From positions 6,740,154 to 6,804,153 of the forward strand of contig NZ_KI632511.1 in NCBI RefSeq assembly GCF_000504285.1: 64,000 nt of DNA, in the 5' to 3' direction. The notes under the pieces were generated by a model, which ran no database searches, was not told the origin of the DNA, and saw only the letters and a program-made list of their open reading frames with translations. Within the stretch, counting starts at the first letter, position 1; every line of letters begins with the position of its first letter. Shown here piece by piece: positions 8,009 through 63,082 of the stretch. This DNA comes from Actinospica robiniae DSM 44927 (lineage in GTDB: Bacteria > Actinomycetota > Actinomycetes > Streptomycetales > Catenulisporaceae). A program made the position numbers and the translations under genes.

Positions 8009-8062
8009 GATCAGACGAATGCGCGGGCCCGGCCGGAGCCGGGCCCGCGCATTCGTCTGATC
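8009..8062 (-). terminator. Perfect 24-bp hairpin between exporter pairs 2 and 3
   Basis: Bases 8009-8032 are exactly complementary to 8039-8062, with a 6-base loop (ccggag). The hairpin lies 16 bases after the stop of the pair-2 permease on the minus strand. There is no U-run, which is usual for GC-rich actinomycetes. It should end transcription of pair 2 before pair 3. Confidence 0.8.
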
Positions 8063-18917: not shown

Positions 18918-19706
18918 GTGACGACGAGCACCGAGATCACCGCCCACACGATCCTCCCCGCCCACCGCGAGGACATCGAACTCAAGACCGCCGACGGCCT
19001 GACCCTGGTCGGTGAACTGGCCCTGCCGCCCGAAGGCCGCACCCCGGTGGCCACCCTCGTCACCCTCCACCCGCTGCCCACCCACGCCGGCATGATGGAC
19101 AGCCACGTCTACCGCAAGGCCGCCTGGCGCCTCCCCGCCCTCGCCGACCTCGCCGTCCTGCGCTTCAACACCCGAGGCACCACCTCCGCCCGCGGCACGA
19201 GCGAGGGAGCGTTCGAAGAGGGCGTCGGCGAGCAGCACGACGTGGCCGCCGCCATCGACTTCGCCGACCACCGAGACCTGCCGAACCCCTGGCTGGTCGG
19301 CTGGTCCTTCGGCACGGAACTGACGCTCAAGTACGGTTGCGAGCCCCAGGTGAAGGGCGCGATCCTGCTCTCCCCGCCCCTGCACCGGGCCGGCGAAGCG
19401 GACATCCGCACGTGGGCCGACTCCGGCAAGCCGGTGAAGGTGCTGGTGCCCGAGTTCGACGACTACCTGCGCCCCGAAGAAGCGAAAGAGCGCTTCGCCA
19501 CGCTGCTGACGAACGAAGCGTCCGTAGCGGCCGGCACGGAACTGATCCCCGTCCAAGGTGCGAAGCACCTGTGGGTGGGCGAGAAGTACGTCCGGATCGT
19601 CCTCGACGAGATCGTCCGTACCACCAACCCGGCCGCCGCCCCTCTGCCGGCGGAGTATGACGGCCGCTTCGGGCCCGCCGAGAAGTACGGCTCTCACCAG
19701 GCCTGA
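18918..19706 (+). CDS. Alpha/beta hydrolase
   Basis: The product is 262 residues. The nucleophile elbow is GWSFGTEL (Ser in GxSxG). LHPLPTHAGMMDSHVYRKAA and VLRFNTRGT precede it, as in small serine hydrolases related to the YfdC/dienelactone hydrolase group. Asp in LVPEFDDYL and His in VQGAKHLW are good candidates for the rest of the triad. No signal peptide is visible, so it is cytoplasmic. GTG at 18918 is the first start after CCTGGTCAG; no strong ribosome-binding site is seen. The substrate is unknown. It ends 6 bases before the convergent first mycosin gene. Confidence 0.8.
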   Translation: MTTSTEITAHTILPAHREDIELKTADGLTLVGELALPPEGRTPVATLVTLHPLPTHAGMMDSHVYRKAAWRLPALADLAVLRFNTRGTTSARGTSEGAFEEGVGEQHDVAAAIDFADHRDLPNPWLVGWSFGTELTLKYGCEPQVKGAILLSPPLHRAGEADIRTWADSGKPVKVLVPEFDDYLRPEEAKERFATLLTNEASVAAGTELIPVQGAKHLWVGEKYVRIVLDEIVRTTNPAAAPLPAEYDGRFGPAEKYGSHQA

Positions 19707-19711
19707 TACAG

Positions 19712-21325
19712 CTACTGCCCCTGGTAGGGATTCTCCGGGCGCGGCTGCCGCTGCGCATAGTCGCCGGGCTGCTGCTGCGGGTACGCGCCCTGCTGCGGAA
19801 CCTGCGGATAGGCGTTCTGCGGCTGTTGCGGCTGGTACTGGCCCTGTTGCGGATACTGCGGCTGGTATTGGCTGCCTTGCTGGGGGTACTGCGGCTGGTA
19901 TTGACCTTGCTGGGGATACTGCGGCGCGTACTGGCCCTGTTGTGGGTACTGCGGCTGATATTGGCCTTGCTGTGGGTACTGCGGCTGGTGGGGGATCGGC
20001 TGCTGATTCCCCTGCGCGGGCGGCGCGTACTGCCCGCCCGGAGGCATCGGCGGATAGTACCCGTTGTCGCTGCCACCGCCGACGGGCCCGCGACTGCGCC
20101 GGCTGCCCCGCATAGCGAGGAAAAGCACGAGTCCGCCGATGACCACGATCGCGACGACGACCCCGCCGATCAGCCCGGCCGACGAGCTCGACGTCCCGCC
20201 GGCGGTCCCAGGATTCTGCTGTCCGCTACCGGTAGGAGCAGTCGCGTTGGGGGAAGCCGAAGCCGAGACTGCCGGCCCGCCGAGCGGATTGGCCGTGCTC
20301 GCCGGCTCGGCGGCACCGAGTGCCGCGAGGGGGTCGATGACGCCGTAGCCGACGTGGTCGTCGTACCGCTTGCCAGGCTTCGTCTCCTTGGTGACGACCT
20401 GGGCGGTGTTGTCGATGATCGCTGCCACGACCTGGCCCTGCGTCCAGGTGGGGTGCAGACTGATGATCAGCGCGGCCTCAGCGGCGACCATCGGCGAGGC
20501 CTGCGAGGATCCGCTGTTCTCGTTATACGAGCCGCCGATCATGCCGCCCTCGATGGACACGCCCGGGGCGGCGAGCGTCACGTCGGAGCCGTAGTGCGAA
20601 TACTTGTCCATGTGGGAGGTCTGGTCGAGAGCGGCGACGTCGAGCACGCCCGGAACGTTCGCCGGGCATCCCGGCTGGTTTCCGCTCAGCGCGGTGTTGC
20701 CGGTTGCGGCCACCACGACGACGTTATGGCTCAGCGCGTAGTCGATGGCGTCCGTGGCGAGCTCGGAGCACCCACCGGGTGAGCCGTTCGAGATGTTGAG
20801 AACTCGCGCGCCGTGGTCCGTGGCGTACTTGATCCCAGCGTCGAGTGAGGCTTCAGATCCTCCCTCACCGCTACTCGGCATGACCTTGATGGGCATGATC
20901 TTGGCCTGGGGCGCGAGCCCGATGACGCCGGTCGTGCCGCCAGAACCCGTGTGTCCGTGGCCGGCGATCACCGTGGCGATCGAAGTCCCGTGCGATTCGC
21001 TGTAGTTGTCATCACGCGTGTCGGTGGTGGGGGAGTTCGAATCTATGAGGTTGACGCCCGGAACGAACGAACCCTGCAGGTCCGGCTGGCTCGGATCGAC
21101 ACCCGTGTCCAAGACCGCGACGACGACGCCCGCTCCTTGGGCGTTGAACTCGCTGCGAATCTTGGTGGCCTGGAGTGTGACGAGCGCCCACTCCTTGTCG
21201 GCGATCGCGTTGCCTGAGCCCGCCATGGCAGTTCCGGCCCCGGCCACCGTCAACGCGAGCGCTCCTGTGAGCGTGAGCGCTTGCCTTGTCAGACTCGAAA
21301 GCCTGACGGCGTTCCCCCTGTACAT
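19712..21325 (-). CDS. mycP: Type VII secretion-associated serine protease (mycosin), copy 1
   Basis: The product is 537 residues: signal peptide (LTLTGALALTVAGAGTAMAG), subtilase domain with Asp73 (LDTGVD), His112 (ESHGTSIA), oxyanion Asn (AATGNTA) and Ser in SGSSQASPM, a linker, one transmembrane helix (LIGGVVVAIVVIGGLVLFLA) and a long cytoplasmic tail. The tail has about five copies of a ten-residue QPQYPQQGQY repeat and ends in NPYQGQ. Mycosins are membrane-anchored proteases that process ESX substrates. ATG at 21325 has AGGGGAG upstream and gives the N-terminus shared with its paralogues; a longer start at 21409 is not supported. It is the most downstream of four tandem copies. Confidence 0.85.
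   Translation of the reverse strand: MYRGNAVRLSSLTRQALTLTGALALTVAGAGTAMAGSGNAIADKEWALVTLQATKIRSEFNAQGAGVVVAVLDTGVDPSQPDLQGSFVPGVNLIDSNSPTTDTRDDNYSESHGTSIATVIAGHGHTGSGGTTGVIGLAPQAKIMPIKVMPSSGEGGSEASLDAGIKYATDHGARVLNISNGSPGGCSELATDAIDYALSHNVVVVAATGNTALSGNQPGCPANVPGVLDVAALDQTSHMDKYSHYGSDVTLAAPGVSIEGGMIGGSYNENSGSSQASPMVAAEAALIISLHPTWTQGQVVAAIIDNTAQVVTKETKPGKRYDDHVGYGVIDPLAALGAAEPASTANPLGGPAVSASASPNATAPTGSGQQNPGTAGGTSSSSAGLIGGVVVAIVVIGGLVLFLAMRGSRRSRGPVGGGSDNGYYPPMPPGGQYAPPAQGNQQPIPHQPQYPQQGQYQPQYPQQGQYAPQYPQQGQYQPQYPQQGSQYQPQYPQQGQYQPQQPQNAYPQVPQQGAYPQQQPGDYAQRQPRPENPYQGQ
19820..19990 (-). repeat. About five 30-base tandem repeats coding QPQYPQQGQY
   Basis: The C-terminal tail of mycosin copy 1 is encoded by imperfect 30-base direct repeats, each giving a Gln/Pro/Tyr-rich decapeptide. 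Codons differ between copies, so the peptide rather than the DNA seems to be kept. Confidence 0.75.
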
Positions 21326-21382
21326 TGCCGCTCCCCTGCGCCTCAAGTCCGTCGTCATGGTCGATGCAGTGCTCTGTCCTGG

Positions 21383-21404
21383 AAAAAAAGCCGCTCTGCC
21401 GCGG
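21383..21404 (-). terminator. Short hairpin with seven U residues after mycosin copy 2
   Basis: On the minus strand, just after the copy-2 stop codon, CCGC ... GCGG forms a short stem followed by TTTTTTT (plus-strand A-run 21383-21389). A U-run of this kind is rare in such GC-rich DNA. It would separate copies 1 and 2. Confidence 0.45.
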
Positions 21405-21405
21405 A

Positions 21406-22929
21406 TCACTGCCCCTGATAGGGGTTCCCGGGCGGCTGGACGTATCCATTGGCGCCGGGCTGCGGCTGGTAGGCACCGTTGCCTTGCGGAGACTGCTGCG
21501 GGTAGGGACCCGGTGCCTGGTAAGGACCCGGCTGCCGGTAAGAGATCGGCTGCTGATACGGACCCGGTTGCTGGTAGGGATTCGGCTGCTGGTACCCCTG
21601 CGGTGGCGGCGCATACTGCCCACCCTGAGGCATCGGCGGATAGTACCCATTCCCGCCGCCGCCGCTGCCCCCAGGCTGCCCTTGCCCGGCGCGGCGACTT
21701 GCCCGCGTGGCGAGGAACACCACCAGCCCGCCGACGACGACGATCGCGACGATGATCCCTGCAATGAGCCCGATCGAAGAACTCGACTTCCCGCCGTCAC
21801 TCGCCGTGGCACTCGGATTCCCCGAGCCGACAGGTGTCGTCGCGTCGCTCGACGCAGTGGCCCCGGTACCGGCAGGCGCCGAGACCGCCGGCCCTCCGAG
21901 CGGGTTGGCGGTGCTGGCGGGCTCGGCAGCGCCAAGGGCCGCAAGGGGGTCGATGACGCCGTAGCCGACGTGAGAGTCGTAGCGCTTGCCGGGCTGCGAT
22001 TCCTTCGCGACGGCTTGGGCGGTGTTGTCGATGATGGTTGAGACGACCTGGCCCTGCGTCCAGGTGGGGTGCAACCCACGGATCAGCGCGGCTTCCGCCG
22101 CGACGCATGGCGCGGCGAGCGAGGATCCGCTGTTCTCGCCGTACTTACCGCCTATCAGGCCGACCTCCATGTCCACGCCTGGCGCCGCGAGCGTCACGTC
22201 GGAGCCGTAGTGGGAGTACTTGTCCATGTGGTCGGTCTGGTCGATGGCCGCGACATCGAGCACACCGGGGACGTTCGCGGGACAGGACGAGACATTCGTG
22301 GTCAGCGCGTCATTGCCGGTTGCGGCAGCAACGACCACGTTGTGGCTCAGCGCGTAGTCGATGGCAGCAGTAGTCGCGCTCGGACAGGTCCCCGGCGAAC
22401 CATTGGAGATATTGATGACCTGAGCCCCGTGGTCGACCGCGTAGCGAATCCCCGCCTGGAGAGACATGTCCGTCCCGCCGTTCTCCCCGATCACCACCGG
22501 CATGATCTTCGCCTGGTCCGCCAGCCCGACCATGCCGTACTGGCCGCCGTTGCCGTCGCTGTGTGCGTGGCCGGCGATAATCGTCGCGATCGATGTCCCG
22601 TGTGATTCGACGTAGTCGACATCGCTGGAGTCCATCGACGGGTTTTCCGGATTCGTGACGTTGGCGCCGACGACGAACGAACCCTGAAGGTCAGGCTGCT
22701 TGGGATCGACCCCCGAGTCGACCACCGCGACGACGACCCCGGCACCCCGGGCGCTGAACTCGCTGTGAACCTTGCCGTTCTGGAGCGTCGTCAGCGCCCA
22801 TTCCTTGTCCGCGACCGGATTGTCCGACGCGAAGGCGATTCCAGCCCCGGCAAACGTCAGGGCGAGCGCTCCCACGAGTGCGAGCGCCCGCCCTGCTATC
22901 GCTGAAGCCTGACGATCATCCCGTGGCAT
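21406..22929 (-). CDS. mycP: Type VII secretion-associated serine protease (mycosin), copy 2
   Basis: The product is 507 residues. It has a signal peptide (ALALVGALALTFAGAGIAFA), then a subtilase domain with Asp71 (VVDSGVD), His110 (ESHGTSIA), Asn206 (AATGND) and Ser270 (SGSSLAAP). Cys182 and Cys216 could form the disulfide common in mycosins. A transmembrane helix (LIAGIIVAIVVVGGLVVFLA) and a Gln/Pro/Tyr-rich tail ending GNPYQGQ follow. ATG at 22929 is preceded by a GGGGAC site that forms the end of the leader hairpin at 22941-22980. It lies in the same orientation as three paralogues and behind the WXG and PE-like genes. Confidence 0.85.
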   Translation of the reverse strand: MPRDDRQASAIAGRALALVGALALTFAGAGIAFASDNPVADKEWALTTLQNGKVHSEFSARGAGVVVAVVDSGVDPKQPDLQGSFVVGANVTNPENPSMDSSDVDYVESHGTSIATIIAGHAHSDGNGGQYGMVGLADQAKIMPVVIGENGGTDMSLQAGIRYAVDHGAQVINISNGSPGTCPSATTAAIDYALSHNVVVAAATGNDALTTNVSSCPANVPGVLDVAAIDQTDHMDKYSHYGSDVTLAAPGVDMEVGLIGGKYGENSGSSLAAPCVAAEAALIRGLHPTWTQGQVVSTIIDNTAQAVAKESQPGKRYDSHVGYGVIDPLAALGAAEPASTANPLGGPAVSAPAGTGATASSDATTPVGSGNPSATASDGGKSSSSIGLIAGIIVAIVVVGGLVVFLATRASRRAGQGQPGGSGGGGNGYYPPMPQGGQYAPPPQGYQQPNPYQQPGPYQQPISYRQPGPYQAPGPYPQQSPQGNGAYQPQPGANGYVQPPGNPYQGQ

Positions 22930-22940
22930 CTGTCGCGTCC

Positions 22941-22980
22941 CCTGTACCGAAGTCCGTCATCGTGCGGTGCTCGGTACAGG
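22941..22980 (-). promoter_or_regulatory. 5' leader hairpin of mycosin copy 2, with TAGCCT box
   Basis: On the minus strand CCTGTACCGA and TCGGTACAGG pair perfectly over 10 bp around a 20-base loop. The 3' arm runs straight into the ribosome-binding site (CAGGGGAC). A conserved CGCTAGCCT lies immediately 5' (22978-22986) and may be the -10 region. Equivalent structures precede copies 3 and 4. Confidence 0.55.
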
Positions 22981-23034
22981 CTAGCGTGCCACGCATTTCA
23001 AGGCATCGTCAGGATGCTGTTTTGCTCCGGCTCT

Positions 23035-24510
23035 TTACCGGCCCTGATACGGATTCCCAGGCTGCTGGCCGTATCCGCGGCCACCGGGCTGTGGCTGGTA
23101 GGAGCCCTGTGGCGGTGGGGGGAGTGGTTGCTGGTGAGGATTCGGCTGCTGGTACCCCTGTGGCGGCGGCGCATACTGCCCGCCCGGAGGTGTCGGCGGG
23201 TAATACCCGTACCCGCCACCACCGCCGTTGCCGCCTGGCCCCCCGGGCCCGCCAGGTCCGCCAGGTCCCCCGGCCCGGTTCTTCCGCGTTACGAGGAACA
23301 GCACCAGCCCACCGACGACGACGATCGCGACGATGATCCCGGCAATGAGCCCGACCGAAGAACTCGACTTCCCTCCGCTACTCGCGGAAGGATCCTGATT
23401 CTGGAACGCGGCAGGCGTGGTCGGGCCACTCGAAGCACCGGATGACGCGGCAGCCGAGGTCGAGACAGCCGGGCCCCCGAGCGGGTTCGCCGTACTGGCG
23501 GGCTCTTTGGCGCCAAGCGCGGCAAGCGGGTCGATGACCCCGTAGCCGACGTGGGAATCCACGCGCTTGCCGGCCTGCGTTTGGCCACTCGCAACCTGAA
23601 AGGTGTTGTCGATGATCACCGCGACGACCTGTCCCTCGGTCCAGGTGGGATGCAGCCCGATGATGAGCGCGGCCTCAGCGGCAACCCACGGCGCCGCGAG
23701 CGACGTTCCGCTGTTCTCCCCGTACTTACCGCCCGTCAGGCCCACCTCTATGTCGACGCCCGGCGCAGCCACGGAGACATCGTCGCCGTGGTAGGAATAC
23801 GGATCCATATGACCGCTCTGGTCGATGGAGGCCACATCCAGTACTCCCGCGACCGATCCAGGACAGTCGTCCGCATCGCCCGACTCGGCCGTGTTGCCGG
23901 CAGCGACCACGACAACGGCGTTTCGCTGCAACGCGTAGTCGACCGCGTCGACCATCTGCTGATTGCAGGTGCCATCCTGGCCGAACGACGTACTGATGAC
24001 ACGCACGCCATGATCGGCCGCATACTTTATGCCCGCCTCAAGCGACGGCAGTTTCAGGCTGTCAGTCGTGTCAGAGATCTTGACCGGCATGACCTTTGCC
24101 TGATCGGCAAGACCGATCACTCCGACCTGAGCCCCATTGCTGTCGTGACCGTGGCCCGCCATGGCCGTCGCAATCGCCGTTCCATGCGATTCGCTCGTCG
24201 TGTCACCGGTGTCAGAAGTCGGGCTATCGGGATTGACCAGATTCACCCCGGGCACAAGCGTGCCCTGCAGATCAGGCTGACTCGCATCGACGCCGGAGTC
24301 GACATCCGCGATGACGACGCCGGTTCCCCGTGCATTGAACTTGCTGTGGATCGTGCCGCTCTGAAACGAATTGAGCGCCCACTCCTTGTCGGCGATCGGG
24401 TTGTCAGATGCGACAGCGGTCCCTGCCCCGGTAACAGTCAAGGCGAGCGCTCCCATGAGTGCGAGCGCCCGCCTTCGTATCTGCGAAGCCTGACGATGAT
24501 CCCGTTGCAT
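23035..24510 (-). CDS. mycP: Type VII secretion-associated serine protease (mycosin), copy 3
   Basis: The product is 491 residues. The signal peptide is ALALMGALALTVTGAGTAVA; the subtilase domain has Asp71 (DVDSGVD), His in ESHGTAIA, Asn in VAAGNTA and Ser in SGTSLAAP. The transmembrane helix is LIAGIIVAIVVVGGLVLFLV, followed by a tail of Gly-Gly-Pro repeats and PQGYQQPNPHQQP, ending GNPYQGR. ATG at 24510 (MQRDHRQAS) matches the N-termini of copies 2 and 4; the much longer open frame upstream is not coding. Its leader has the 12-bp hairpin at 24522-24560. Confidence 0.85.
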   Translation of the reverse strand: MQRDHRQASQIRRRALALMGALALTVTGAGTAVASDNPIADKEWALNSFQSGTIHSKFNARGTGVVIADVDSGVDASQPDLQGTLVPGVNLVNPDSPTSDTGDTTSESHGTAIATAMAGHGHDSNGAQVGVIGLADQAKVMPVKISDTTDSLKLPSLEAGIKYAADHGVRVISTSFGQDGTCNQQMVDAVDYALQRNAVVVVAAGNTAESGDADDCPGSVAGVLDVASIDQSGHMDPYSYHGDDVSVAAPGVDIEVGLTGGKYGENSGTSLAAPWVAAEAALIIGLHPTWTEGQVVAVIIDNTFQVASGQTQAGKRVDSHVGYGVIDPLAALGAKEPASTANPLGGPAVSTSAAASSGASSGPTTPAAFQNQDPSASSGGKSSSSVGLIAGIIVAIVVVGGLVLFLVTRKNRAGGPGGPGGPGGPGGNGGGGGYGYYPPTPPGGQYAPPPQGYQQPNPHQQPLPPPPQGSYQPQPGGRGYGQQPGNPYQGR

Positions 24511-24521
24511 CTGTCCCGTCC

Positions 24522-24560
24522 CCTGTACGAAGCCGTCATCGTGGCGGTGCTTCGTACAGG
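24522..24560 (-). promoter_or_regulatory. 5' leader hairpin of mycosin copy 3, with TAGCCT box
   Basis: On the minus strand CCTGTACGAAGC pairs perfectly with GCTTCGTACAGG over 12 bp, with a 15-base loop. The 3' arm joins the GGGGAC ribosome-binding site. CGCTAGCCT (24558-24566) precedes it, as in copies 2 and 4. Confidence 0.6.
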
Positions 24561-24613
24561 CTAGCGTGTCGTGCCCTTTACGACGGCGACAGGATGCTGT
24601 TTCTCCTCGGCTC

Positions 24614-26194
24614 CTACCGGCCCTGGTACGGATTCCCCGGCTGCTGCCCGTACCCGCCGGCCGGAGGCTGCGGGGGCTGCTGCTGCGGCTGCTGCCCATA
24701 AGCACCCGGCTGTTGTTGCTGTTGCTGCTGCCCGTACCCACCAGGCTGCTGCTGTTGCCCGTACCCGCCCCCGCCCTGCTGCGGCTGGTAAGCACCCTGC
24801 TGCGGAAGCTGCTGCTGGTAGGGATTCGGCTGCTGGTACCCCTGCGGAGGCGGCGCATACTGCCCACCCGGAGGCGTCGGCGGGTAATACCCGTTCCCGC
24901 CACCCCCGCCCCCGCCACCAGGCCCGCCCGGCCCGCCACGCCGATTCCGCCGCGTCACGAAGAACAGCACCAGCCCGCCAATCACAACGATCGCGACGAC
25001 GATGCCGATGATGGGCCCGCTCGAAGAAGACTTCCCGCCCCCACTAGCCGTAGGAGGCTGATTCCCCGACCCCCCCGGCGCAGTCGCGCCGCCCGAAGCT
25101 CCCGTCGAAGCCCCCGTCGAAGCCCCACCCGACGCGGTTACCGCCGGCCCGCCAAGCGGATTAGCCGTGTTGCTGGGCGCGGCCGCACCAAGCGCGGCAA
25201 GCGGGTCGATGATGCCGTACCCGATGTGGTCGTCGTAACGGCTGCCAGCCTTCGACTGCTTGGCGACGACCTGAGCCGTGTTATCGATGATCGTTGAAAC
25301 AACCTGCCCCGCGGTCCATGTGGGGTGCATTCCAATAATTAGTGCGGCCTCAGCCGAAACCCAGGGGGCGGCCTGAGAGGACCCACTGTTCTCGCCGTAC
25401 TTACCGCCGATTAGGCCGCCTTCGATGTCGACGCCCGGCGCTGCAACTGTCACGTCGGAGCCGTAATGTGAGTTCTTGTCCATGCGGTTGCCTTGGTCGA
25501 AGGCAGCCACATCGATTACGCCCGGCACATTTCCCGGACACGACGAGGCGTTAGTTGAGGTGGCAGTATTTCCAGTCGCAGCCACAACGACGACACCGTG
25601 GCTAAGAGCGTAGTCCACCGCATCCGTCAAATCGGCTGGGCATGCCCCAGCCTGGGTGATCGAAATACTGATCACTTTTGCACCGTGATCGGCCGCGTAC
25701 TTAAAGCCAGCATCGAGTGCCGGAGCGGTACTCGAGTCAACCGCCTCGACCTTGATTGGCATGATCTTCGCCTGGTCGGCGAGTCCGATCATGCCCGTCT
25801 GGCCACCGTTGCCGTCACTATGCGCGTGGCCTGCGATGACTGTGGCAATCGAGGTGCCGTGGGACTCTACGGTATCATCGTCGGAGAAATTGTTTGTCGG
25901 AGTCAATGGATTTACGAGATTCACGCCGTCCACCAACGAACCTTGGAGATCCGGCTGCTGCGGGTCGACGCCGCTATCAATCACGGCCACGACGACGCCG
26001 GAGCCTCGAGCACCATACTGGCTGTGGATCGTATTGCTCTTGAGCGTCTGAAGCGCCCACTCCTTGTCGGCGATCGGGTTGTCGGTGCCTGATGCCACGG
26101 CAGTTCCAGCCCCAGCAACAGTCAAGGCGAGCGCTCCCACGAGTGCGAGCGCTCGCCTTCCCGTCCTCGAAGCCTGACGATGTTCCCGCTGCAT
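24614..26194 (-). CDS. mycP: Type VII secretion-associated serine protease (mycosin), copy 4
   Basis: The product is 526 residues. The signal peptide is ALALVGALALTVAGAGTAVA. The triad is Asp73 (VIDSGVD), His in ESHGTSIA and Ser in SGSSQAAP, with the oxyanion Asn in AATGNTA. The transmembrane helix is GIVVAIVVIGGLVLFFVT. The tail is rich in Gly, Gln, Pro and Tyr, with a run of seven Gln, and ends GNPYQGR. ATG at 26194 has AGAGGAG 6 bases upstream. The middle of this gene uses more A/T-ending codons than its neighbours (for example around 25330-25930). It lies nearest to the WXG-domain gene and may be the first copy of the array. Confidence 0.85.
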   Translation of the reverse strand: MQREHRQASRTGRRALALVGALALTVAGAGTAVASGTDNPIADKEWALQTLKSNTIHSQYGARGSGVVVAVIDSGVDPQQPDLQGSLVDGVNLVNPLTPTNNFSDDDTVESHGTSIATVIAGHAHSDGNGGQTGMIGLADQAKIMPIKVEAVDSSTAPALDAGFKYAADHGAKVISISITQAGACPADLTDAVDYALSHGVVVVAATGNTATSTNASSCPGNVPGVIDVAAFDQGNRMDKNSHYGSDVTVAAPGVDIEGGLIGGKYGENSGSSQAAPWVSAEAALIIGMHPTWTAGQVVSTIIDNTAQVVAKQSKAGSRYDDHIGYGIIDPLAALGAAAPSNTANPLGGPAVTASGGASTGASTGASGGATAPGGSGNQPPTASGGGKSSSSGPIIGIVVAIVVIGGLVLFFVTRRNRRGGPGGPGGGGGGGGNGYYPPTPPGGQYAPPPQGYQQPNPYQQQLPQQGAYQPQQGGGGYGQQQQPGGYGQQQQQQQPGAYGQQPQQQPPQPPAGGYGQQPGNPYQGR

Positions 26195-26205
26195 CTGCCG
26201 CTCCT

Positions 26206-26251
26206 CTGTACCCAAGCTCGTCGTCGTGGTCGATGCGGTGCTTGGTCCAGG
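26206..26251 (-). promoter_or_regulatory. 5' leader hairpin of mycosin copy 4, with TAGCCT box
   Basis: On the minus strand CCTGGACCAAGC pairs with GCTTGGGTACAG as six bp, a bulged G, one bp, a mismatch and three bp. Relative to copy 3, a G-C pair has become C-G at the same stem position, which is a compensatory change. CGCTAGCCT (26249-26257) precedes the stem. Confidence 0.5.
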
Positions 26252-26264
26252 CTAGCGTGCCCTG

Positions 26265-27719
26265 CTATTCGATGACACCGCCAGGAGGCGCCGCATTCTT
26301 GTACTTATCGCCGTACCAGTAGTCTTGGTCTTCCTTGAGCCAGGACGCGCGGTTGCCGCGTTCGTCCTTGCCACCGGCACCACCGGCACCGCGGCCCATG
26401 CCGCCCATCGCGCTGCCCATCTGCTGCTCAGGATTGGTGCCCTCACCTTCGCCAGCGGCTGCTGCCGCGGCAGCCGACTTGCCGCTAGCCCCGGAACCAC
26501 TCCCCGCACCGCTACGCAGAGACGACGCCTGCGATCCGTATCCGGTGCCGCCGGCCTCTTCGCCGATCTCCCCGGCGCCGGCACCAGCCAGGCCCTTGCC
26601 TCCGGAGCCGATTCCGCCGCCTCCGACGCCACCCGAGCCTTCGAAGCTGTCTACGCCGCCGAGACCGCCAGCTCCGCCGATGCCGCCGGCCCCGAATCCA
26701 GCGGCGCCGCTTCCGAAGCTGCTACCGGTACCTCCGACACCGGAAAGACTGCCGCCTCCGGTCCCAGTGGTGCCACCGTAGCCGGAACCCCCGAGTCCGC
26801 TGATCCCGCCGCCTCCGCTCGTGCCGCCGTATCCCGAGCCGGTTCCGGTTCCGTTGCCGCCGTCGCCGATTCCGGATGTCACAGTGGTCGGCGAAGTGGG
26901 GCCAGGGATCGGCCCTGGCTGGTATATGCCGCCACTACCGCTTCCGCCGCCGGCAGATCCCGAACCGCTGCCGCTTCCGCCCCCGTAGCCGCCGTAACTG
27001 CCGCCGCCTCCGGAGCCGCTGCCGCCACCGCTGCTGCTGCCGCCGCCCTCGCCCGTGGGGCCCATGGACACCGGATACATGATGGGTGCTGCAATGGGTG
27101 CTCCGCTGGCGGTTCCGCCGCCGGAGCCGTTCCCGTTGCCGTTGCCATCTTTTCCGGAGCCGGGGTCCGAAGGGTCATCAGATTGGTGACCAAACTCCGC
27201 AGATTTTAGCTGCGACTGGGCCTGCGTGTAAGCCGAGGCCAGTTGCGTCATCACCTGTGTTGCGGCTTGCTTCTTGTTCTCGATGTCCTTCTTGGCGACC
27301 TCGGACGCGATGTTCGCCGTGCCGCCGCTGAAGAATCCGGCGATGACCCCGGTGACCGCGTTGCTGTCGACGTCAGCGAGCAACTGCTCTGCTTCGCTCG
27401 GCGGGCTTGGCATGTACTGCTGAGCCCACGTCAGGGAGCTGCCCGCGTAGTTCATCACCTGGCCGATGGTGTCCGCGTCAGTGGCATGTTGGTTCATCTG
27501 CTGAACCAACTTATTGGCCTGTTGGCTGAACTGATCGGCTGCTGCGCCTGACCACGAGGACTGAATGCCGGACAGCGTGGACTGCAGTTCCTGTGTCGCA
27601 TCGGTGACCGACTGGCTGTGCTGCGTGTTGGTGTCGGCCTCGGACTGAATCGTCGATGGGCTGCCGGACTGGACGTAGTTGTACAGGTCCTGGTGCGACA
27701 TGGATCCATAGTCGGTCAT
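26265..27719 (-). CDS. WXG100/PPE-like type VII secretion substrate with Gly-rich tail
   Basis: The product is 484 residues. The first 175 residues are predicted helical, with the WXG-type turn SSWSG at Trp56 between two helices, followed by a third helical region. The next 230 residues are extremely rich in Gly and Ser (GGSGSGGGGSYGGYGG and similar). The last 35 residues are conserved-looking and charged: RASWLKEDQDYWYGDKYKNA. This is the pattern of actinomycete PPE/WXG-domain ESX substrates. ATG at 27719 follows AAGGAG at 9-10 bases. The partner is the helical protein 22 bases upstream; together they may be exported as a heterodimer (inference). Confidence 0.7.
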   Translation of the reverse strand: MTDYGSMSHQDLYNYVQSGSPSTIQSEADTNTQHSQSVTDATQELQSTLSGIQSSWSGAAADQFSQQANKLVQQMNQHATDADTIGQVMNYAGSSLTWAQQYMPSPPSEAEQLLADVDSNAVTGVIAGFFSGGTANIASEVAKKDIENKKQAATQVMTQLASAYTQAQSQLKSAEFGHQSDDPSDPGSGKDGNGNGNGSGGGTASGAPIAAPIMYPVSMGPTGEGGGSSSGGGSGSGGGGSYGGYGGGSGSGSGSAGGGSGSGGIYQPGPIPGPTSPTTVTSGIGDGGNGTGTGSGYGGTSGGGGISGLGGSGYGGTTGTGGGSLSGVGGTGSSFGSGAAGFGAGGIGGAGGLGGVDSFEGSGGVGGGGIGSGGKGLAGAGAGEIGEEAGGTGYGSQASSLRSGAGSGSGASGKSAAAAAAAGEGEGTNPEQQMGSAMGGMGRGAGGAGGKDERGNRASWLKEDQDYWYGDKYKNAAPPGGVIE

Positions 27720-27741
27720 GTTGGCTCACTCCTTCGCCGAC

Positions 27742-28275
27742 TCAGGTGGTGGGACTGTCGTTGCCAGACGACGAATCCGTGGCAGACGTGTACGTCTGGC
27801 CGGAGTCGCCTGAAGACGCGCTCGACGAATCAGTGGTGGTCGTCGAACTGTTCGAGCTTGTTGTACTGCCGGGAGTTGTATCAGGTACCGCTTGCGTGGG
27901 GTTCGCAGCGAATCCGCCGGACTTGCCCTCGTATTGCGCCGCGATCTGGTTGAACTGGTCGGTCAGCTGCTGCTCGGTCTCCGCGTAGTTCTTGCCGGCG
28001 GTGCCGAGGACGTTGGTCATGGTGTTGACGAGCTGAGTGATCTCCTCGAAGTTCGTCATCAGCGACTGCATCGACGTCTGGTACGCGCTGCCGAGCGACT
28101 GGGCTTCGGGGAAGTTCCCGAGGCCGGCGTTGCCCGAGCCGGCGACCGTGGCGCTCAGGCCGAGCGCGACGGACTGCGCGACCATGGAGTCCATGATGCC
28201 GAGCAGCTTGCTCTGGTACGTCTGCAGCGCCGAGATCTCGACGGCGTACGCCGCCCCCGCGGCCGCATCTAGCAT
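27742..28275 (-). CDS. PE-like helical ESX-associated protein
   Basis: The product is 177 residues. Residues 1-115 are predicted alpha-helical with heptad-like hydrophobics (VEISALQTYQSKLLGIMDSM, then MTNFEEITQLVNTMTNVLGT and ETEQQLTDQFNQIAAQYEG). The last 60 residues are a Ser/Thr/Asp-rich, disordered tail (TTSSNSSTTTTDSSSASSGD). There is no signal peptide. Its place directly upstream of the WXG/PPE-like gene matches the usual PE-then-PPE order. No clear WXG motif is present, so the ESX assignment rests on context and helical pattern. A candidate -10 (TAGAGT, minus strand 28325-28330) lies 50 bases upstream. Confidence 0.6.
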   Translation of the reverse strand: MLDAAAGAAYAVEISALQTYQSKLLGIMDSMVAQSVALGLSATVAGSGNAGLGNFPEAQSLGSAYQTSMQSLMTNFEEITQLVNTMTNVLGTAGKNYAETEQQLTDQFNQIAAQYEGKSGGFAANPTQAVPDTTPGSTTSSNSSTTTTDSSSASSGDSGQTYTSATDSSSGNDSPTT

Positions 28276-28991
28276 CTTCCCGCCAGCCTTCCCCTCAGCC
28301 GATCTTCACAAGGCACTCATCCGTACTCTAGCGAACGCGGCGGTTGCGGGAACCCGGCGAGTCGCAGCACTCTGCGCCCCGTTCGTCGCCCCGCGACGCC
28401 GCTGAGAGTCGTTGCCCGGTATCTACTATGCCGTACCGGGCGGCTCCCGTCAGCACGCATGCGCGGGCCGAGCCGTGCGCTGGAGCTTCGGTGCTCCGTG
28501 CGCGGCCGAGACGGCGCCGTACGTGCGAGATCGCGCCAACGGTTCTTGCTTCAGGTACGTCTTCGTGCCCTGCGTACGCATCGGCGGGTGCTGTGAAATC
28601 CCCCGGGGCCCCCGCCGGGGCGACCGCGCCTGCTGAAGCGCCCCCTGCGTGCGCGTCAGTCGGCCGGCCGTACCCGGCGGGGCCCGTTGCTCCCCCTGGT
28701 CCGACCGATCGGGCCGCGCCCTTTTCCGGTGGTCTCTGCCTGGTCACGAGTCACGCGGTCCTGCGGCATCCCCAAGCCGCCGGACCGCGTGTCCTGCTTC
28801 TCTCCGGTGCGTCGGCCCTGGTTGCCCACTGTGCCGACGCTCCGTCACCCGCTCTACTCGGAACCGCCTGGAGTCCAGCCAACCACACGCCGCCGACGGA
28901 GACGAGGCGGAGCGGCGCTTTATGTGTGCCTGAACCTGACTTTTACCGGACTTTACCCTATTTTGTTTATCCGTCAACTTTTCGGGCGGAC
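28276..28991. other. 716-base region without a convincing gene
   Basis: Several short open frames exist on both strands but none has a plausible start, codon pattern and product together. Visible elements are: a TAGAGT -10-like box for the PE-like gene (28325-28330, minus), an 8-bp hairpin GCCCGGTA/TACCGGGC (28414-28441), and an AT-rich patch (28930-28980) containing TTGACG and TAAAGT 16 bases apart on the minus strand, a possible promoter for leftward transcription. Confidence 0.4.
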
Positions 28992-31513: not shown

Positions 31514-34500
31514 TCACGATTTGCCGGTGCCGTCGGCACTCGGCTTGCTGTCGTTGAGCCCGGGCAGCGGGCCGGTGAGCGCGTCGAGCACGCCCTGGAC
31601 CCGCGCCATCTCGTCGGTGATCGCGTCCCGGCGGCGGATCATCGCGTCCACCTCGCGCTGCGCCTCGGCCTTGGCCTTGTCCGCGTCCGAGCGGGCCTTG
31701 GAGACCAGCGCGTCCGCCGCCTTCTCGGCCGCGGTCTTGAGCGCGGAGGTCTCGGTCGCCGCCTCCTGGCGCAGCCGCTGCGCCTCCCGCTGCGAGGTGG
31801 CGACCTGCTCGGCCACGGTGTTGCGCAGCCGGTCCGCGCCGTCGTGGGCGTCCGCGAGGGTCTTGGCGGCCTCCCGCCGGGCGTCTTCGAGCTCCTTGCG
31901 GGCCTGGGCGACGAGCTCGTCGGCCTGCCGGGCCGAGTTCTGCAGGCCGTCCGCGGCCTTCCTGCGCGCCTCGCCGGTGGTCCGGTCGGCCAGCGACTGG
32001 GCGTCCGAGGTCAGCCGGTCCGCTTGCGCCCGCGTGTCGGTGAGCAGCTTGGTGGCCTCGGCCTGGGCCTTGTCGGTGATGCCCTCGGCGCTCGCCCGGA
32101 TCCGGTCCACCTCGTCCCGGGCGGCGGCGGTGAGCTTGTCCGCCTCGGACCGGGCCTCCGCCTTGGTGTTCTCGGCGTTGGCGGCGGACGCCTGGCCGAT
32201 CTTCGCAGCTTCCTGACGCGCGGTGGTGACGAGCTCGTCCGCCTCGCCGCCGGCCTTGGCGAGGGCCTCCATCGCCTGGCGGCGGGCGTCGGCGAGGACC
32301 TGCTCGGCCTGCTTGCGGGTCTCGTCGGCCTTCGTGCCGGCCTCGCGGGTGGTCTGCTCGGCCCGGTTGCGGGCCTGGTCGACCGTCTGGCTCGCCTTGG
32401 TCTGGGCGGCCTCGAGCACGCCGTCGGCGCTCGCCCGGATCGCAGTGACCTCGTCCCGGGCGGCCTGGATGGAGGCGGCGTTGGAACGGATGGTGTCCTT
32501 GGTCAGCTTCTCGGCCTCGGCCTTGGCCTTCGCGGCGAACGCGTCGGCCTCCTCGCGCTGGCGCGTGGTCTCGGCGAGCGTCTTGCCGCGCAACGCGTCG
32601 GTCTCGGCCTTGGCCTCCTCGCGCATCTGCGCGGCTTCGGCGGAGGACTTCTTGCGCAACGCGGTGGTCTCCACCATCGCGTCGTCGCGCAGCTTGGCCG
32701 CCTCGGCCCGGGCCTCGCCGAGCGCGCGCTCGCCGTCGGCGCGGGCGTCCGCGAGCGCCTTGTCAGCCTGCTGCTGGAGCGCGAGCGCGGCGTTGCCCGC
32801 CTCCGCCCGGACCGTCGCAGCCTCCTGCTGCGCCGACTCGATCAGGCCGGCCGCCTCGGTCCTCATCCTCTGCGCGTCGGCCTTCGCCTCGGCGCGCACG
32901 GCCGCGGCGGCCGCCTCGGCCTCGGCCTGCTTGGCCGCGATCTGCTCGTCCGTCTTGGCCCGCAGCGCGGCCAGCTCCTTGCGGGCGGCCTCGCGCAGCG
33001 CCTCGACGCCGGCCTCGGTGTCCAGCCGGAACTTCTCGGCCAGGTCGGCCGCGTCCTGGCGGATCTTGGCCGCGTCGGCCTCCGCCTCCGAACGCAGCGT
33101 GTTGGCCGCGGCGCGGGCGTCCTCGCTGGTCTTCTCGGCCTGCGCGGTGGCCTGCTCGCGCAGCTTGACGGCGGCCGAGTCGGCATCCGCGCGCAGCTTC
33201 TCGGCCTGGGCGGTGGCCTCGGCCACGAGCCGGGTGGCCTCGGCGCCGGCCGTCCCGCGGACGGCGGAGGCGTCCGCGGCGGCGGTATCAGTGATCTTCT
33301 TCGCCGCGGCGGTGGCCACGCCGTGCGCGCCGGAGGCCTCCTCGTGCAGCCGGCCGGCTTCGCCGTGCAGCCGCTCGGACTCGGCCTGGAAGTGCTCGGC
33401 CTCGGCCCGCAGCCGCTGGGTCTCGGCCTCGCGGCGCTCGAGGTCGGCGGCGGCCTCGGCGGTGAGGGTGTCGGCCGCGGCGCGCGCCTCGGCCACGAGC
33501 CGCTCGGCGCCGTTGGCCGCGTCGGCCAGGGCCTGGGCGGCCTCCTGGGCCGTGCGCGCGGCGGCGAGGTCGGCTTCCTTCTTGCTCTTCGCGGACTGCT
33601 CCGCCGCCTCCGCGCCGATCCGCTGGGCGGCGAGCTCGGCCGTCTCGCGGGCCTTCGCAGCGGCCTGCTCCGCCTCGGTGCGCAGCCGGGCGCCGGCCGC
33701 GGTGGCCTCCTGGGTGGCCTTCTCCGCCTGAGCCAGGGCCTTGTCGCGGGTCGCCTGCGCGGTCGCCCTCGCTTCGGCGATGACCTCGGCGGCGCGCGCC
33801 TCGGCCTCGGCGCGCATCCGGGCCACTTCGGCCTCAGTGCTCTGCCGCAGCCGGGTGGTGTCCGCCTCGGTCTGCTCGCGCAGCATCACCGCGGCGGTCT
33901 TGGTGGACTCGCGCAGCTGGGAGGTCTCCGCCTCGGCCTCGGCACGCAGCCGGGCGATCTCGGCCGCGGCCTGCGCCTCGTGCTTGGCGACGGCCTGCTG
34001 GGTCGCGGCGTGCATCGCGGCGGCGGCCTGCTCGGCCTCGGTCTGCACCCGGGTGGCCTCGGTCTGGGCCATGGTGAGCAGTTTCTGCGCGCTGGTGGAC
34101 GCGGAGGCGTTCTGCTTCTCCGCGGCCTCGCGCAGCGCGGCGACCCGGCTCTCGCCCTCGACCACGCGGGCCCGGGCCTGGGCCAGCCCGGCCTCCGCCT
34201 CGGCCTGTGCCTGAGCCCTGACATGGGCGGCGTACTCCTGCGCCTGCCGCAGCTCGGCCTGCGCCTGCTCGCGCAGCTGGTGCATCTCGGTGGCGGCCTG
34301 CGCCCGGGCCTCGTCAATGGCCTGACGGCGCAGCACCTCGGCCTCCGAGCGCACCCGCTCGGCCCAGGCCACCGACTCGTTGACCTCGGCCTCGCCGCGC
34401 TGGCGGCGCTCGGCGAGCTCGGTCTCGAGCAGCATCCGCCGCTCGTTGACCTCGCTCTGCAGCCGCTGCGCCTCCTGCTGCGCGGCCGCGCGGACCTGGT

Positions 34501-34870
34501 CGGCCTGCTGCTGCGCGTTGCGCAGCATCTGGTCGACCCGGCCGGAGATGTTGTTGAACTGCGGGTGCAGGCCGCGGCGGAACTCGTGCAGCTTGGAGCG
34601 CAGCACCTCGATCTGGTAGGCGAGGTCCTCGGCGTGGTTGACCGCCTCGTCCCGCTCCTCGCGCAGCCGGTTGAGCTCGGCTTCCATCTCGTCGAGGTGC
34701 GCGTCGACCTCGTACCGGTTGTAGCTCAGCAGCTCCTGCTGCGGCGGCGGCGCCTGGGCCGGCGCCCCCTGCTGCCCTGGGTACTGGCTCGGGTACCCGC
34801 CGTTACCGGACTGGGCATGGTGGGGGCGTGAACCGTACCCGGTCCGTTCGTCCACGCGCCCGTATCCCAT
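31514..34870 (-). CDS. scy: Scy, polarisome coiled-coil organiser of tip growth
   Basis: The product is 1118 residues, shorter than the roughly 1300 of Streptomyces coelicolor Scy as I remember it. Residues 1-45 are Pro/Gln/Gly/Tyr-rich and disordered; about 47-110 form a heptad coiled coil (LLSYNRYEVDAHLDEMEAEL onward); SKLHEFRRGLHPQFNNISGR marks a break. The remaining 1000 residues are a continuous Ala/Glu/Arg/Lys-rich coiled coil with long-period repeats, ending with ALTGPLPGLNDSKPSADGTG. Scy recruits DivIVA and FilP at new tips. The coiled coil makes every frame open on both strands; only this frame has the coiled-coil product and family N-terminus. No clear ribosome-binding site precedes ATG 34870. 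Confidence 0.92.
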   Translation of the reverse strand: MGYGRVDERTGYGSRPHHAQSGNGGYPSQYPGQQGAPAQAPPPQQELLSYNRYEVDAHLDEMEAELNRLREERDEAVNHAEDLAYQIEVLRSKLHEFRRGLHPQFNNISGRVDQMLRNAQQQADQVRAAAQQEAQRLQSEVNERRMLLETELAERRQRGEAEVNESVAWAERVRSEAEVLRRQAIDEARAQAATEMHQLREQAQAELRQAQEYAAHVRAQAQAEAEAGLAQARARVVEGESRVAALREAAEKQNASASTSAQKLLTMAQTEATRVQTEAEQAAAAMHAATQQAVAKHEAQAAAEIARLRAEAEAETSQLRESTKTAAVMLREQTEADTTRLRQSTEAEVARMRAEAEARAAEVIAEARATAQATRDKALAQAEKATQEATAAGARLRTEAEQAAAKARETAELAAQRIGAEAAEQSAKSKKEADLAAARTAQEAAQALADAANGAERLVAEARAAADTLTAEAAADLERREAETQRLRAEAEHFQAESERLHGEAGRLHEEASGAHGVATAAAKKITDTAAADASAVRGTAGAEATRLVAEATAQAEKLRADADSAAVKLREQATAQAEKTSEDARAAANTLRSEAEADAAKIRQDAADLAEKFRLDTEAGVEALREAARKELAALRAKTDEQIAAKQAEAEAAAAAVRAEAKADAQRMRTEAAGLIESAQQEAATVRAEAGNAALALQQQADKALADARADGERALGEARAEAAKLRDDAMVETTALRKKSSAEAAQMREEAKAETDALRGKTLAETTRQREEADAFAAKAKAEAEKLTKDTIRSNAASIQAARDEVTAIRASADGVLEAAQTKASQTVDQARNRAEQTTREAGTKADETRKQAEQVLADARRQAMEALAKAGGEADELVTTARQEAAKIGQASAANAENTKAEARSEADKLTAAARDEVDRIRASAEGITDKAQAEATKLLTDTRAQADRLTSDAQSLADRTTGEARRKAADGLQNSARQADELVAQARKELEDARREAAKTLADAHDGADRLRNTVAEQVATSQREAQRLRQEAATETSALKTAAEKAADALVSKARSDADKAKAEAQREVDAMIRRRDAITDEMARVQGVLDALTGPLPGLNDSKPSADGTGKS

Positions 34871-34905
34871 GAGTGCCTATGGTGTCAGATGACCGGGGTA
34901 GAGCT

Positions 34906-36249
34906 CTAGACGTCGCGGAAGCGTTCGATTTCACTCCGGTGACGATCTCGCAACGCACCGTTGCCGACGCCCAGGCCTTCTCCCGGTGCTAGACACAGTA
35001 CCCCGACTTTGCCCTGGTGCAGATTCCGGTGGACGTCGTAGGCCGCCTGACCGGCTTGTTCGAGTCCGTAGGAGCGGGAGAGGGTGGGGTGGACCATGGC
35101 CTTGCACACCAGCCGGTTGGCCTCCCAGGCCTCGCGGTAGTTGGCGAAGTGCGAGCCGATCACCCTCTTGAGATTCATCCACAGATACCGGTTGTCGTAC
35201 TCGTGCATGAACCCGCTGGTGGAGGCGCAGGTGACGATGGAGCCGCCGCGGCGGGCGACGTAGACCGAGGCGCCGAAGGTCTCCCGGCCGGGGTGTTCGA
35301 ACACGATGTCCGGGTCCTCGCCGCCGGTCAGCTCCCGGATGCGCGCGCCGAAACGCTGCCACTCCTTGGGATCCTGGGTGACCGGGTCGGACCAGAACCG
35401 GAAGCCCTCGGCCTGCCGGTCGATCACGATCTCGGCGCCCATGGCCCGGCAGATCTCAGCCTTCTGCGGCGAGGAGACCACGCACACCGGTATCGCGCCG
35501 CCGTTGAGGGCGTACTGGGTCGCGTACGAGCCGAGCCCGCCGGAGGCGCCCCAGATAAGCACGACGTCGCCCTGCTTCATCCCGGCGCCGTTGCGCGAGA
35601 CCAGCTGCCGGTACGCGGTGGAGTTGACCAGGCCCGGGCTCGCGGCCTCCTCCCAGGTCAGGTGCTCCGCCTTGGGCATCAGCTGGTTCGCCTTGACCAG
35701 GGCGATCTCGGCGAGGCCGCCGAAGTTGGTCTCGAAGCCCCAGATCCGCTGCTCCGGGTCGAGCATGGTGTCGCCGTGGCCGGCCGCGTCCTCGAGCTCG
35801 ACCGACTGGCAGTGCGCGACGACCTGGTCGCCTGGCTTCCACTTGTTCACGCCGGCGCCCACGCGCAGCACCACGCCGGACAGGTCGGAGCCGAGGATGT
35901 GGTACGGCAGGTCGTGCCGTTTGGTGAGCTCGGAGAGCCGGCCGTACTTGCGCAGGAAGGCGAAGGTGGGCACGGGTTCGAAGATCGAGCTCCACACCGT
36001 GTTGTAGTTGATGGCGCTGGCCATCACGGCCACCAGCGCCTCGCCGGGGCCGAGCTCGGGCAGCGCGACCTCGTCGAGGTGCAGCGCCTTGCGCGGGTCC
36101 TTCTCCCGGGTCTCGAGCCCCTCGAACATTCCGGTCTCGTCCGCGTGCACGGTGACGGCGCGGTACGAGGCGGGCAGCGGGATGTGGGCGTAGTCCTCGG
36201 GTGTCGCTTCGCCGCTGAGCACGGCGTCGCGGATCTCGTTGATACTCAT
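34906..36249 (-). CDS. ccr: Crotonyl-CoA carboxylase/reductase
   Basis: The product is 447 residues, the family length. It converts crotonyl-CoA, CO2 and NADPH to ethylmalonyl-CoA, or reduces crotonyl-CoA to butyryl-CoA. Family marks are ASAINYNTVWSSIFEPVPTF, the YHILGSDLSGVVLRVGAGVN region, WGFETNFGGLAEIALVKANQ, the NADP fold IWGASGGLGSYATQYAL, FEHPGRETFGASVYV and the C-terminal DVHRNLHQGKVGVLCLAPGE. ATG at 36249 has GGAGG 9 bases upstream; earlier in-frame starts add Pro/Arg-rich noise. An operator copy lies 73 bases upstream. With thl, hbd and mce it supplies ethylmalonyl-CoA for assimilation or polyketide extender units. Confidence 0.95.
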   Translation of the reverse strand: MSINEIRDAVLSGEATPEDYAHIPLPASYRAVTVHADETGMFEGLETREKDPRKALHLDEVALPELGPGEALVAVMASAINYNTVWSSIFEPVPTFAFLRKYGRLSELTKRHDLPYHILGSDLSGVVLRVGAGVNKWKPGDQVVAHCQSVELEDAAGHGDTMLDPEQRIWGFETNFGGLAEIALVKANQLMPKAEHLTWEEAASPGLVNSTAYRQLVSRNGAGMKQGDVVLIWGASGGLGSYATQYALNGGAIPVCVVSSPQKAEICRAMGAEIVIDRQAEGFRFWSDPVTQDPKEWQRFGARIRELTGGEDPDIVFEHPGRETFGASVYVARRGGSIVTCASTSGFMHEYDNRYLWMNLKRVIGSHFANYREAWEANRLVCKAMVHPTLSRSYGLEQAGQAAYDVHRNLHQGKVGVLCLAPGEGLGVGNGALRDRHRSEIERFRDV

Positions 36250-36321
36250 GGGGGTCGGCCTCCGAACGGATGGTCGCGTCGAGCGCGGCGGGGGAGGCGT
36301 CGGGGCCGTCCGCCGCTTAGC

Positions 36322-36333
36322 TACTTGCCGGTA
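36322..36333 (-). promoter_or_regulatory. Near-palindromic operator copy upstream of ccr
   Basis: On the minus strand the sequence is TACCGGCAAGTA, directly after a -10-like CATAGT, so a bound protein would cover the start of transcription. The flanks extend the symmetry (TTACC...AGTAG). It is the same motif as before hbd, mce/thl and marR. Confidence 0.5.
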
Positions 36334-36442
36334 ACTATGCCGACCGAAGGCGTGCTTGGCTAGGGGCGCCGCCCACATTTCTGCGTTCGCCCCGTGACAA
36401 CCTGCACTCTTGCGCCCGCCCGGGCGCCCGCTACCAGTCGCG

Positions 36443-62824: not shown

Positions 62825-62845
62825 CCGGGAGCGTTCGACGCTGCT

Positions 62846-62898
62846 GCCGAGGGCGGCAGGGAGCTGTTTCACTGAAACAGCTCCCTGCCGCCCTCGGC
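62846..62898 (+). terminator. Perfect 26-bp hairpin at the end of the dpp operon
   Basis: Bases 62846-62871 are exactly complementary to 62873-62898 with a single base at the centre; the apex reads GTTTCACTGAAAC, giving a natural loop. It starts 21 bases after the dppF stop. Confidence 0.9.
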
Positions 62899-63082
62899 GT
62901 CTGCGTGCCGTCAGGTTGTAGTTCGGGCAGCTGCCGGCGGTGCGGAGCTCCCGGTACCTGAAGTGGACGGTGATCGAGCCGTCGCCCGAGGTGATGCCGA
63001 AGCAGGTGGGGCCGGCGGCGACGGCGAGGCGGGACCGTGTGGGTGAGACGGAGATGCGCGTGCTCCCGTAAGCCCGGACGTA
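62899..63082 (-). pseudogene. Possible C-terminal remnant of a secreted-protein gene
   Basis: On the minus strand, directly after a TGA at 63083-63085, about 55 codons with strong G/C third positions read YVRAYGSTRISVSPTRSRL, then AVAAGPTCFGITSGDGSITV, HFRYRELRTAGSCPNYNLTA. Two Cys and beta-rich alternation look like a secreted domain. There is no start codon or ribosome-binding site, and the frame runs into the dpp terminator without a proper stop. A decayed gene end is more likely than a functional gene. The remaining part of the gap (63083-63311) shows nothing but the methyltransferase promoter. Confidence 0.3.

Follow-up and report, generated by a model that had tools for sequence, protein, structure and literature searches.

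The 64,000-nucleotide (nt) window analyzed here, positions 6,740,154 to 6,804,153 of contig NZ_KI632511.1 from Actinospica robiniae DSM 44927 (a genome of 9.9 Mb in one contig), carries four tandem subtilase genes on the minus strand at window positions 19712-26194. The array sits downstream of a gene with a WXG100 domain and is transcribed in the order copy 4, 3, 2, 1. The subject of this study is the short leader that precedes each gene, which in copies 2, 3 and 4 can fold into a hairpin predicted to hide the Shine-Dalgarno (SD) sequence and carries, overlapping the 5' arm of that hairpin, a promoter-like hexamer. All four proteins match the subtilase family PF00082 with 135-156 bits, above the Pfam gathering cut-off of 21.8. 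Their scores against TIGR03921, the type VII mycosin equivalog model (219.6, 196.8, 184.1 and 194.1 bits for copies 1-4), lie below its curated cut-off of 278.75, and "mycosin-like" is therefore the safe name. The genes, with the four subtilases assigned by profile matches, are:

26265-27719, minus strand: WXG100-domain gene; its stop codon lies 7 nt before the CGCT of the copy 4 leader
24614-26194, minus strand: copy 4, mycosin-like subtilase gene, first in transcription order
23035-24510, minus strand: copy 3, mycosin-like subtilase gene
21406-22929, minus strand: copy 2, mycosin-like subtilase gene
19712-21325, minus strand: copy 1, mycosin-like subtilase gene

Hairpins in the leaders

A preliminary description of this DNA had reported stems in the leaders of copies 2, 3 and 4 that run into the ribosome-binding site, a conserved sequence just before each stem, and a copy 1 leader of related sequence that has lost the pairing. 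All of these features are present. The stems of copies 2 and 3 are perfect (10 and 12 base pairs (bp)), while that of copy 4, when paired by hand, has 10 pairs interrupted by a G x A mismatch and a bulged G; nine of these pairs form in the minimum free energy (MFE) fold. CGCTAGCCT precedes the stems in copies 2-4 and is not found in copy 1. The elements of the leaders are:

26240-26251, minus strand: copy 4 leader, 5' arm of the hairpin
26206-26217, minus strand: copy 4 leader, 3' arm, adjoining the SD (pairing by hand and MFE fold)
24549-24560, minus strand: copy 3 leader, 5' arm
24522-24533, minus strand: copy 3 leader, 3' arm, 12 bp perfect, running into the SD
22971-22980, minus strand: copy 2 leader, 5' arm
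22941-22950, minus strand: copy 2 leader, 3' arm, 10 bp perfect, running into the SD
21326-21403, minus strand: copy 1 leader, related sequence without a stem and without TANNNT in the last 80 nt ahead of the start codon

The arms are separated by loops of 20, 15 and 22 nt in copies 2, 3 and 4, and the leaders fold with z-scores of −3.5, −2.9 and −2.5, respectively, compared with +1.5 for copy 1. An equally long perfect stem arose in none of 600 shuffles of the copy 2 leader and in none of 600 of the copy 3 leader. The longest unbroken stem of copy 4, at 6 bp, is ordinary (87 of 600 shuffles), and so are those of copy 1, G001, G002 and G004 (579, 590, 366 and 559 of 600; these three genomes are introduced below). 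Across the window, a perfect stem of at least 10 bp occurs in 12 of 1998 tiles of 64 nt each, the copy 3 stem being among the 12 and the copy 2 stem not being caught whole by the tiling.

Three related genomes were used for comparison: G001 and G002, of the window's own genus (G001 being its closest relative), and G004, of the same family and another genus. One ortholog with the leader is found in each of G001 and G002, on contigs that end inside the gene, so that both genomes may hold further copies, and a homologous gene is found in G004. The G001 leader folds like that of copy 4 and has the lowest z-score of all (−4.4); the G004 leader has no such fold (z-score +0.5).

Another stem lies in the coding region of copy 4, where the signal-peptide codons near its start form a perfect 13-bp stem (26124-26159), similar by eye in copies 2 and 3 and in G001. 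It probably arises merely from the repetition of Ala-Leu codons (GCGCTC), but it could add structure near the start.

A promoter-like hexamer and predicted masking of the ribosome-binding site

CGCTAGCCT contains the hexamer TAGCCT (TAACCT in G001), which fits the actinomycete −10 motif TANNNT. This motif is reported as the Streptomyces −10 motif, present at 2,870 of 3,570 transcription starts in S. coelicolor (PMC4895711), and is also described for S. avermitilis (PMC8780764). The hexamer begins 54, 53 and 60 nt before the start codon in copies 2, 3 and 4, and 59, 61 and 55 nt before it in G001, G002 and G004, and in copies 2-4 the 5' arm starts with the last three letters of the hexamer. It is probably a −10 element, as judged from the motif and its position. 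If transcription began 7 nt after the hexamer, a purine would stand at +1 in copies 2, 3 and 4, and the candidate elements would be placed as follows:

26249-26254, minus strand: copy 4 TAGCCT, probable −10, predicted start at 26242
24558-24563, minus strand: copy 3 TAGCCT, probable −10, predicted start at 24551, no recognizable −35
22978-22983, minus strand: copy 2 TAGCCT, probable −10, predicted start at 22971, no recognizable −35

In G004 the hexamer is present and the stem absent, and TAGCCT arises in 17 of 2000 shuffles of that leader; in copy 1 both have been lost. A candidate −35 element, GTGTCA, lies 18 nt upstream of the hexamer in G004 and is seen by eye in copy 4 and G001 as well (GCGTCA in G002). 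The −35 motifs described in PMC8780764 are BTGACN in general and BTGTCV for one functional class. The GTGTCA of copy 4 and G001 (GCGTCA in G002) overlaps the last WXG100 codons and may have been kept for that reason.

The preliminary description had counted a transcription start downstream of the 5' arm against its proposed RNA element, and the probable −10 would put the predicted start near the end of that arm, leaving 9 nt of the arm (of 10 in copy 2 and of 12 in copies 3 and 4) out of mRNA made from that promoter. The effect on the ribosome-binding site was calculated as the predicted cost of opening the SD. For mRNA beginning at −120 this cost is 14.3, 15.4, 9.9 and 15.8 kcal/mol in copies 2, 3, 4 and G001, while for mRNA beginning at the predicted start it falls to 2.6, 4.2, 2.4 and 6.2 kcal/mol; in each of these four leaders, none of 150 shuffles reaches either the full cost or the drop. 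The copy 1 leader has a cost of 6.2, and that of G004 goes from 4.0 to 2.5, with no effect. When the 5' end was moved stepwise, the SD of copies 2 and 3 was freed between −50 and −46, inside the 5' arm.

A structured SD is by itself not rare in this GC-rich genome, because among 151 genes taken from 400 kb with a simple script, a rough caller that will have some starts wrong, the costs of copies 2, 3 and 4 are reached by 5, 3 and 23 genes, respectively. TANNNT stands at the matching place in 3 of the 23 costly leaders and in 16 of the 151 overall.

The predicted masking in copies 2, 3, 4 and G001, together with the conservation of loop and arms, also agrees with the view of the preliminary description, in which an RNA element that is always part of the mRNA controls translation by masking the SD. 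In its simplest form for copy 4, G001 and G002, this would be coupling, in which ribosomes that terminate at the stop codon of the WXG100 gene would open the lower part of the structure and make the SD accessible. The stop codon indeed lies 7 nt before the CGCT in copy 4, and likewise in G001 and G002; in copies 2 and 3, however, the distances are 48 and 47 nt, too far for direct melting. Considering further that the conserved hexamer resembles a promoter that would remove the 5' arm, that covariation is weak and that no Rfam family is matched, an element present in every transcript appears rather unlikely.

Conservation, covariation and genomic setting of the leader

The firmest result is independent of the fold. 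Among copies 2, 3, 4, G001 and G002 (10 comparisons), the leader of about 60 nt is 74-91% identical, compared with 33-49% at fourfold degenerate sites, for proteins that are 53-71% identical over their first 400 residues. Strong purifying selection acts on the leader over its entire length, including the loop. Copy 1 compared with the others gives 63-74% in the leader and 32-57% at fourfold sites. In the copy 1 leader, a run of seven T residues on the minus strand (21380-21389) takes the place of the hexamer and of the leader's upstream part found in copies 2-4, which looks like a deletion of about 29 nt.

Coding does not explain this conservation, since the distances from hexamer to start codon in the five leaders (54, 53, 60, 59 and 61 nt) do not keep a single frame, and a leader peptide or N-terminal extension was rejected. 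In-frame upstream ATG codons exist in G001 (L022, position 1287), in copy 1 (21358) and in copy 3 (24699, within the copy 4 gene); copy 4 offers no more than a TTG (26215), and the frame of copy 2 is closed just upstream of its start. A terminator was likewise rejected, the stem being followed by GGGGA or GAGGA with no T run, and a terminator scan of 19600-28400 returned one terminator-like site, on the other strand, against 3.7 expected.

Conservation of the entire leader as sequence, loop included, would suit a DNA operator in which a dimeric regulator binds the inverted repeat around the promoter. The spacing of the arms varies among the copies, however, and GCTAGCCTGKAC has three exact matches in the genome, all within the array, so that no regulon is visible; with up to one mismatch it has 53 genome matches, compared with 109 for a reversed control pattern, and a regulon was rejected. 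An operator is improbable.

The preliminary description had called the stems covarying. Covariation was counted over 15 pairs in the five leaders (copies 2-4, G001 and G002), the structure being derived from the same sequences. Paired cells amount to 89.3%, compared with a shuffled mean of 85.7%, a value as high being found in 13 of 500 shuffles. Only 2 of the 15 pairs show changes on both sides, both resting on copy 3 and matched in 65 of 500 shuffles; 7 are invariant, 1 varies on one side, and in the remaining 5 all variation consists of mispairs. As many as 92 of 500 shuffles attain the observed covariation score, and the term "covarying" is not established. RNAalifold returned the same stem with an unfavorable covariation term of +1.28, and sliding the partner by one to three columns lowers every covariation measure. 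The compensatory position singled out earlier is real (G-C in copy 3, C-G in copies 2 and 4, G001 and G002), although it can also be written as one C-G pair lost in copy 3, and the change is confined to a single lineage, where it may reflect a single event. An equal number of random changes would leave all 11 pairs intact in 0.9% (2 + 2) or 0.26% (2 + 3) of cases, and the kept pairing therefore points to selection or to correction of the repeat by template switching.

The latter process leads to a further explanation. Imperfect inverted repeats are described as mutation hotspots through template switching (PMC7202029). The promoter, with TAGCCT as its −10, and the SD could each be conserved as such, with pairing incidental (the CCT of the hexamer against the AGG of the SD) and perfected in copies 2 and 3 by template-switch correction after duplication. 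That the orthologs differ by mispairs rather than compensations, and that G002 and G004 are without masking, would follow naturally. The region between hexamer and SD, needless for a promoter and an SD alone, is also conserved, however, and masking beats all shuffles in four of the five leaders; incidental pairing is judged unlikely.

A covariance-model search of relatives, which the preliminary description had put forward as a check, gave strong matches in all three genomes of the genus, and only there. The model, R1, was built from the five intact leaders. Of the 60 relatives searched, 6 have a match at E ≤ 1, the three strong ones being those of the window's genus and the other three being weak (E 0.31-0.78); there is one convincing match each in G001 and G002, and a second G002 match (E 0.067) lies elsewhere. 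In 394 genomes drawn from the class, R1 at E ≤ 0.01 matched the source genome and G336, the latter at E 0.007 per genome, a level at which about three matches are expected by chance in 394. Weak matches may have been lost in both searches, since the filters were strict. With strong matches confined to one genus, a wider RNA family was rejected, as was a described one (riboswitch, thermometer or other Rfam leader), since Rfam gave no match at E up to 1 in 19600-28400.

In G004, a 14-bp hairpin directly follows the WXG100 stop codon (L023, 468-502), upstream of a mycosin-like gene that has the hexamer and no SD hairpin; it is possibly a terminator or processing stem that insulates the gene there.

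The spacers before copies 2 and 3 (22987-23034 and 24567-24613) resemble the end of the WXG100 gene in an alignment judged by eye, which suggests that the duplicated unit carried that gene end along. Farther away, the neighbors of the array at 31514-38548 include a crotonyl-CoA carboxylase/reductase, which scores above its model cut-off, and two proteins that score below theirs, one a Scy-like coiled-coil protein and the other HelR/HelD-like. Among the window proteins scanned, which cover part of the open reading frames of the window, none was identified as a type VII core component, and the protease array may therefore be an orphan. A narrow literature search gave no paper on Actinospica and type VII secretion. 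Very strong inverted repeats lie at 8009-8062 (25-nt arms, 100% matched, 4-nt loop) and at 62838-62906 (34-nt arms, 91%, 1-nt loop), and are possible terminators.

Possible silencing of read-through transcripts and known counterparts

The explanation that we tentatively favor is that the hairpin silences read-through: it would hide the SD, and would form only in mRNA running in from upstream, while an internal promoter lies in its 5' arm. TAGCCT, starting 53-60 nt before the start codon in copies 2-4, would be the −10 of this promoter. A read-through mRNA from the preceding gene would contain both arms, fold and conceal the SD, whereas an mRNA from the internal promoter would start near the end of the 5' arm, lack the stem and be translated. 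The element would thereby prevent a protease copy from being made from run-in transcripts. The joint loss of hexamer and stem in copy 1 fits this reading, because a gene with no promoter of its own could not afford the hairpin, although this is one case. The fuller proposal, that three of the four copies carry a self-contained switch and are translated only from their own promoter and never from read-through, while the copy that has no promoter also has no hairpin, is on the doubtful side.

Several results weigh against silencing of read-through. At the −35 place, copies 2 and 3 have GATGCC and GCCGTC, unlike GTGTCA; a strict sigma-70 scan found no promoter at these leaders; and beyond the hexamer the longest word shared by the G004 leader is matched by 35 of 1000 shuffles. 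The G002 leader keeps both hexamer and sequence, yet its fold is barely better than that of shuffles (z-score −0.8; 39 of 200 as good) and its SD cost stays at 4.4 kcal/mol from either 5' end, with no masking. Covariation is weak as well. Furthermore, the SD cost of copy 4 is already down to 5.1 kcal/mol with a start at −70 and to 2.4 at −60, and that of G001 to 6.3 at −60, in both cases before the hexamer is lost; in these predicted folds the tie between SD relief and the predicted start appears good for copies 2 and 3 only. Of the RNA element controlling translation that had been described earlier, what stands is a conserved cis element that, as RNA, is predicted to hide the SD, in a second species (G001) as well; in G002 the fold is hardly kept. 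RNA control of these genes is plausible and most likely limited to read-through mRNA.

Riboswitches, thermometers and the leaders of Rfam families resemble this element as structured leaders before a coding gene, and differ from it in that the present leader matches no Rfam family and is confined to one genus. Hairpins that mediate translational coupling are found between the genes of operons. Copy 4 is similar to these in that a hairpin between two genes covers the SD of the second, 7 nt past the stop codon of the first, whereas in copies 2 and 3 the stop codon of the preceding gene is 47-48 nt away.

The closest counterparts are the leaders of bacteriophage T4 gene e and I-TevI, in which, as described in PMC3014915 and PMC2988022, the SD of long transcripts is sequestered in a hairpin, and short transcripts that can be translated are made from a late promoter that overlaps the 5' arm. 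The mycosin-like leaders share with them an SD hairpin and a promoter-like hexamer that overlaps the 5' strand and whose transcript would lack that strand. They differ in lying on a bacterial chromosome, before tandem duplicated protease genes, and in having a hexamer of the actinomycete type; moreover, promoter, read-through and repression are demonstrated in T4 and are here inferred from sequence. A general lesson is that an SD hairpin should not be called a 5' untranslated region element before the promoter has been located. If the reading is correct, T4-style silencing of read-through would operate in a bacterium, keeping tandem secretion-linked proteases under separate control and giving the array a simple way to keep its members separate despite transcription running through, and these leaders would be a bacterial chromosomal counterpart of those of gene e and I-TevI.

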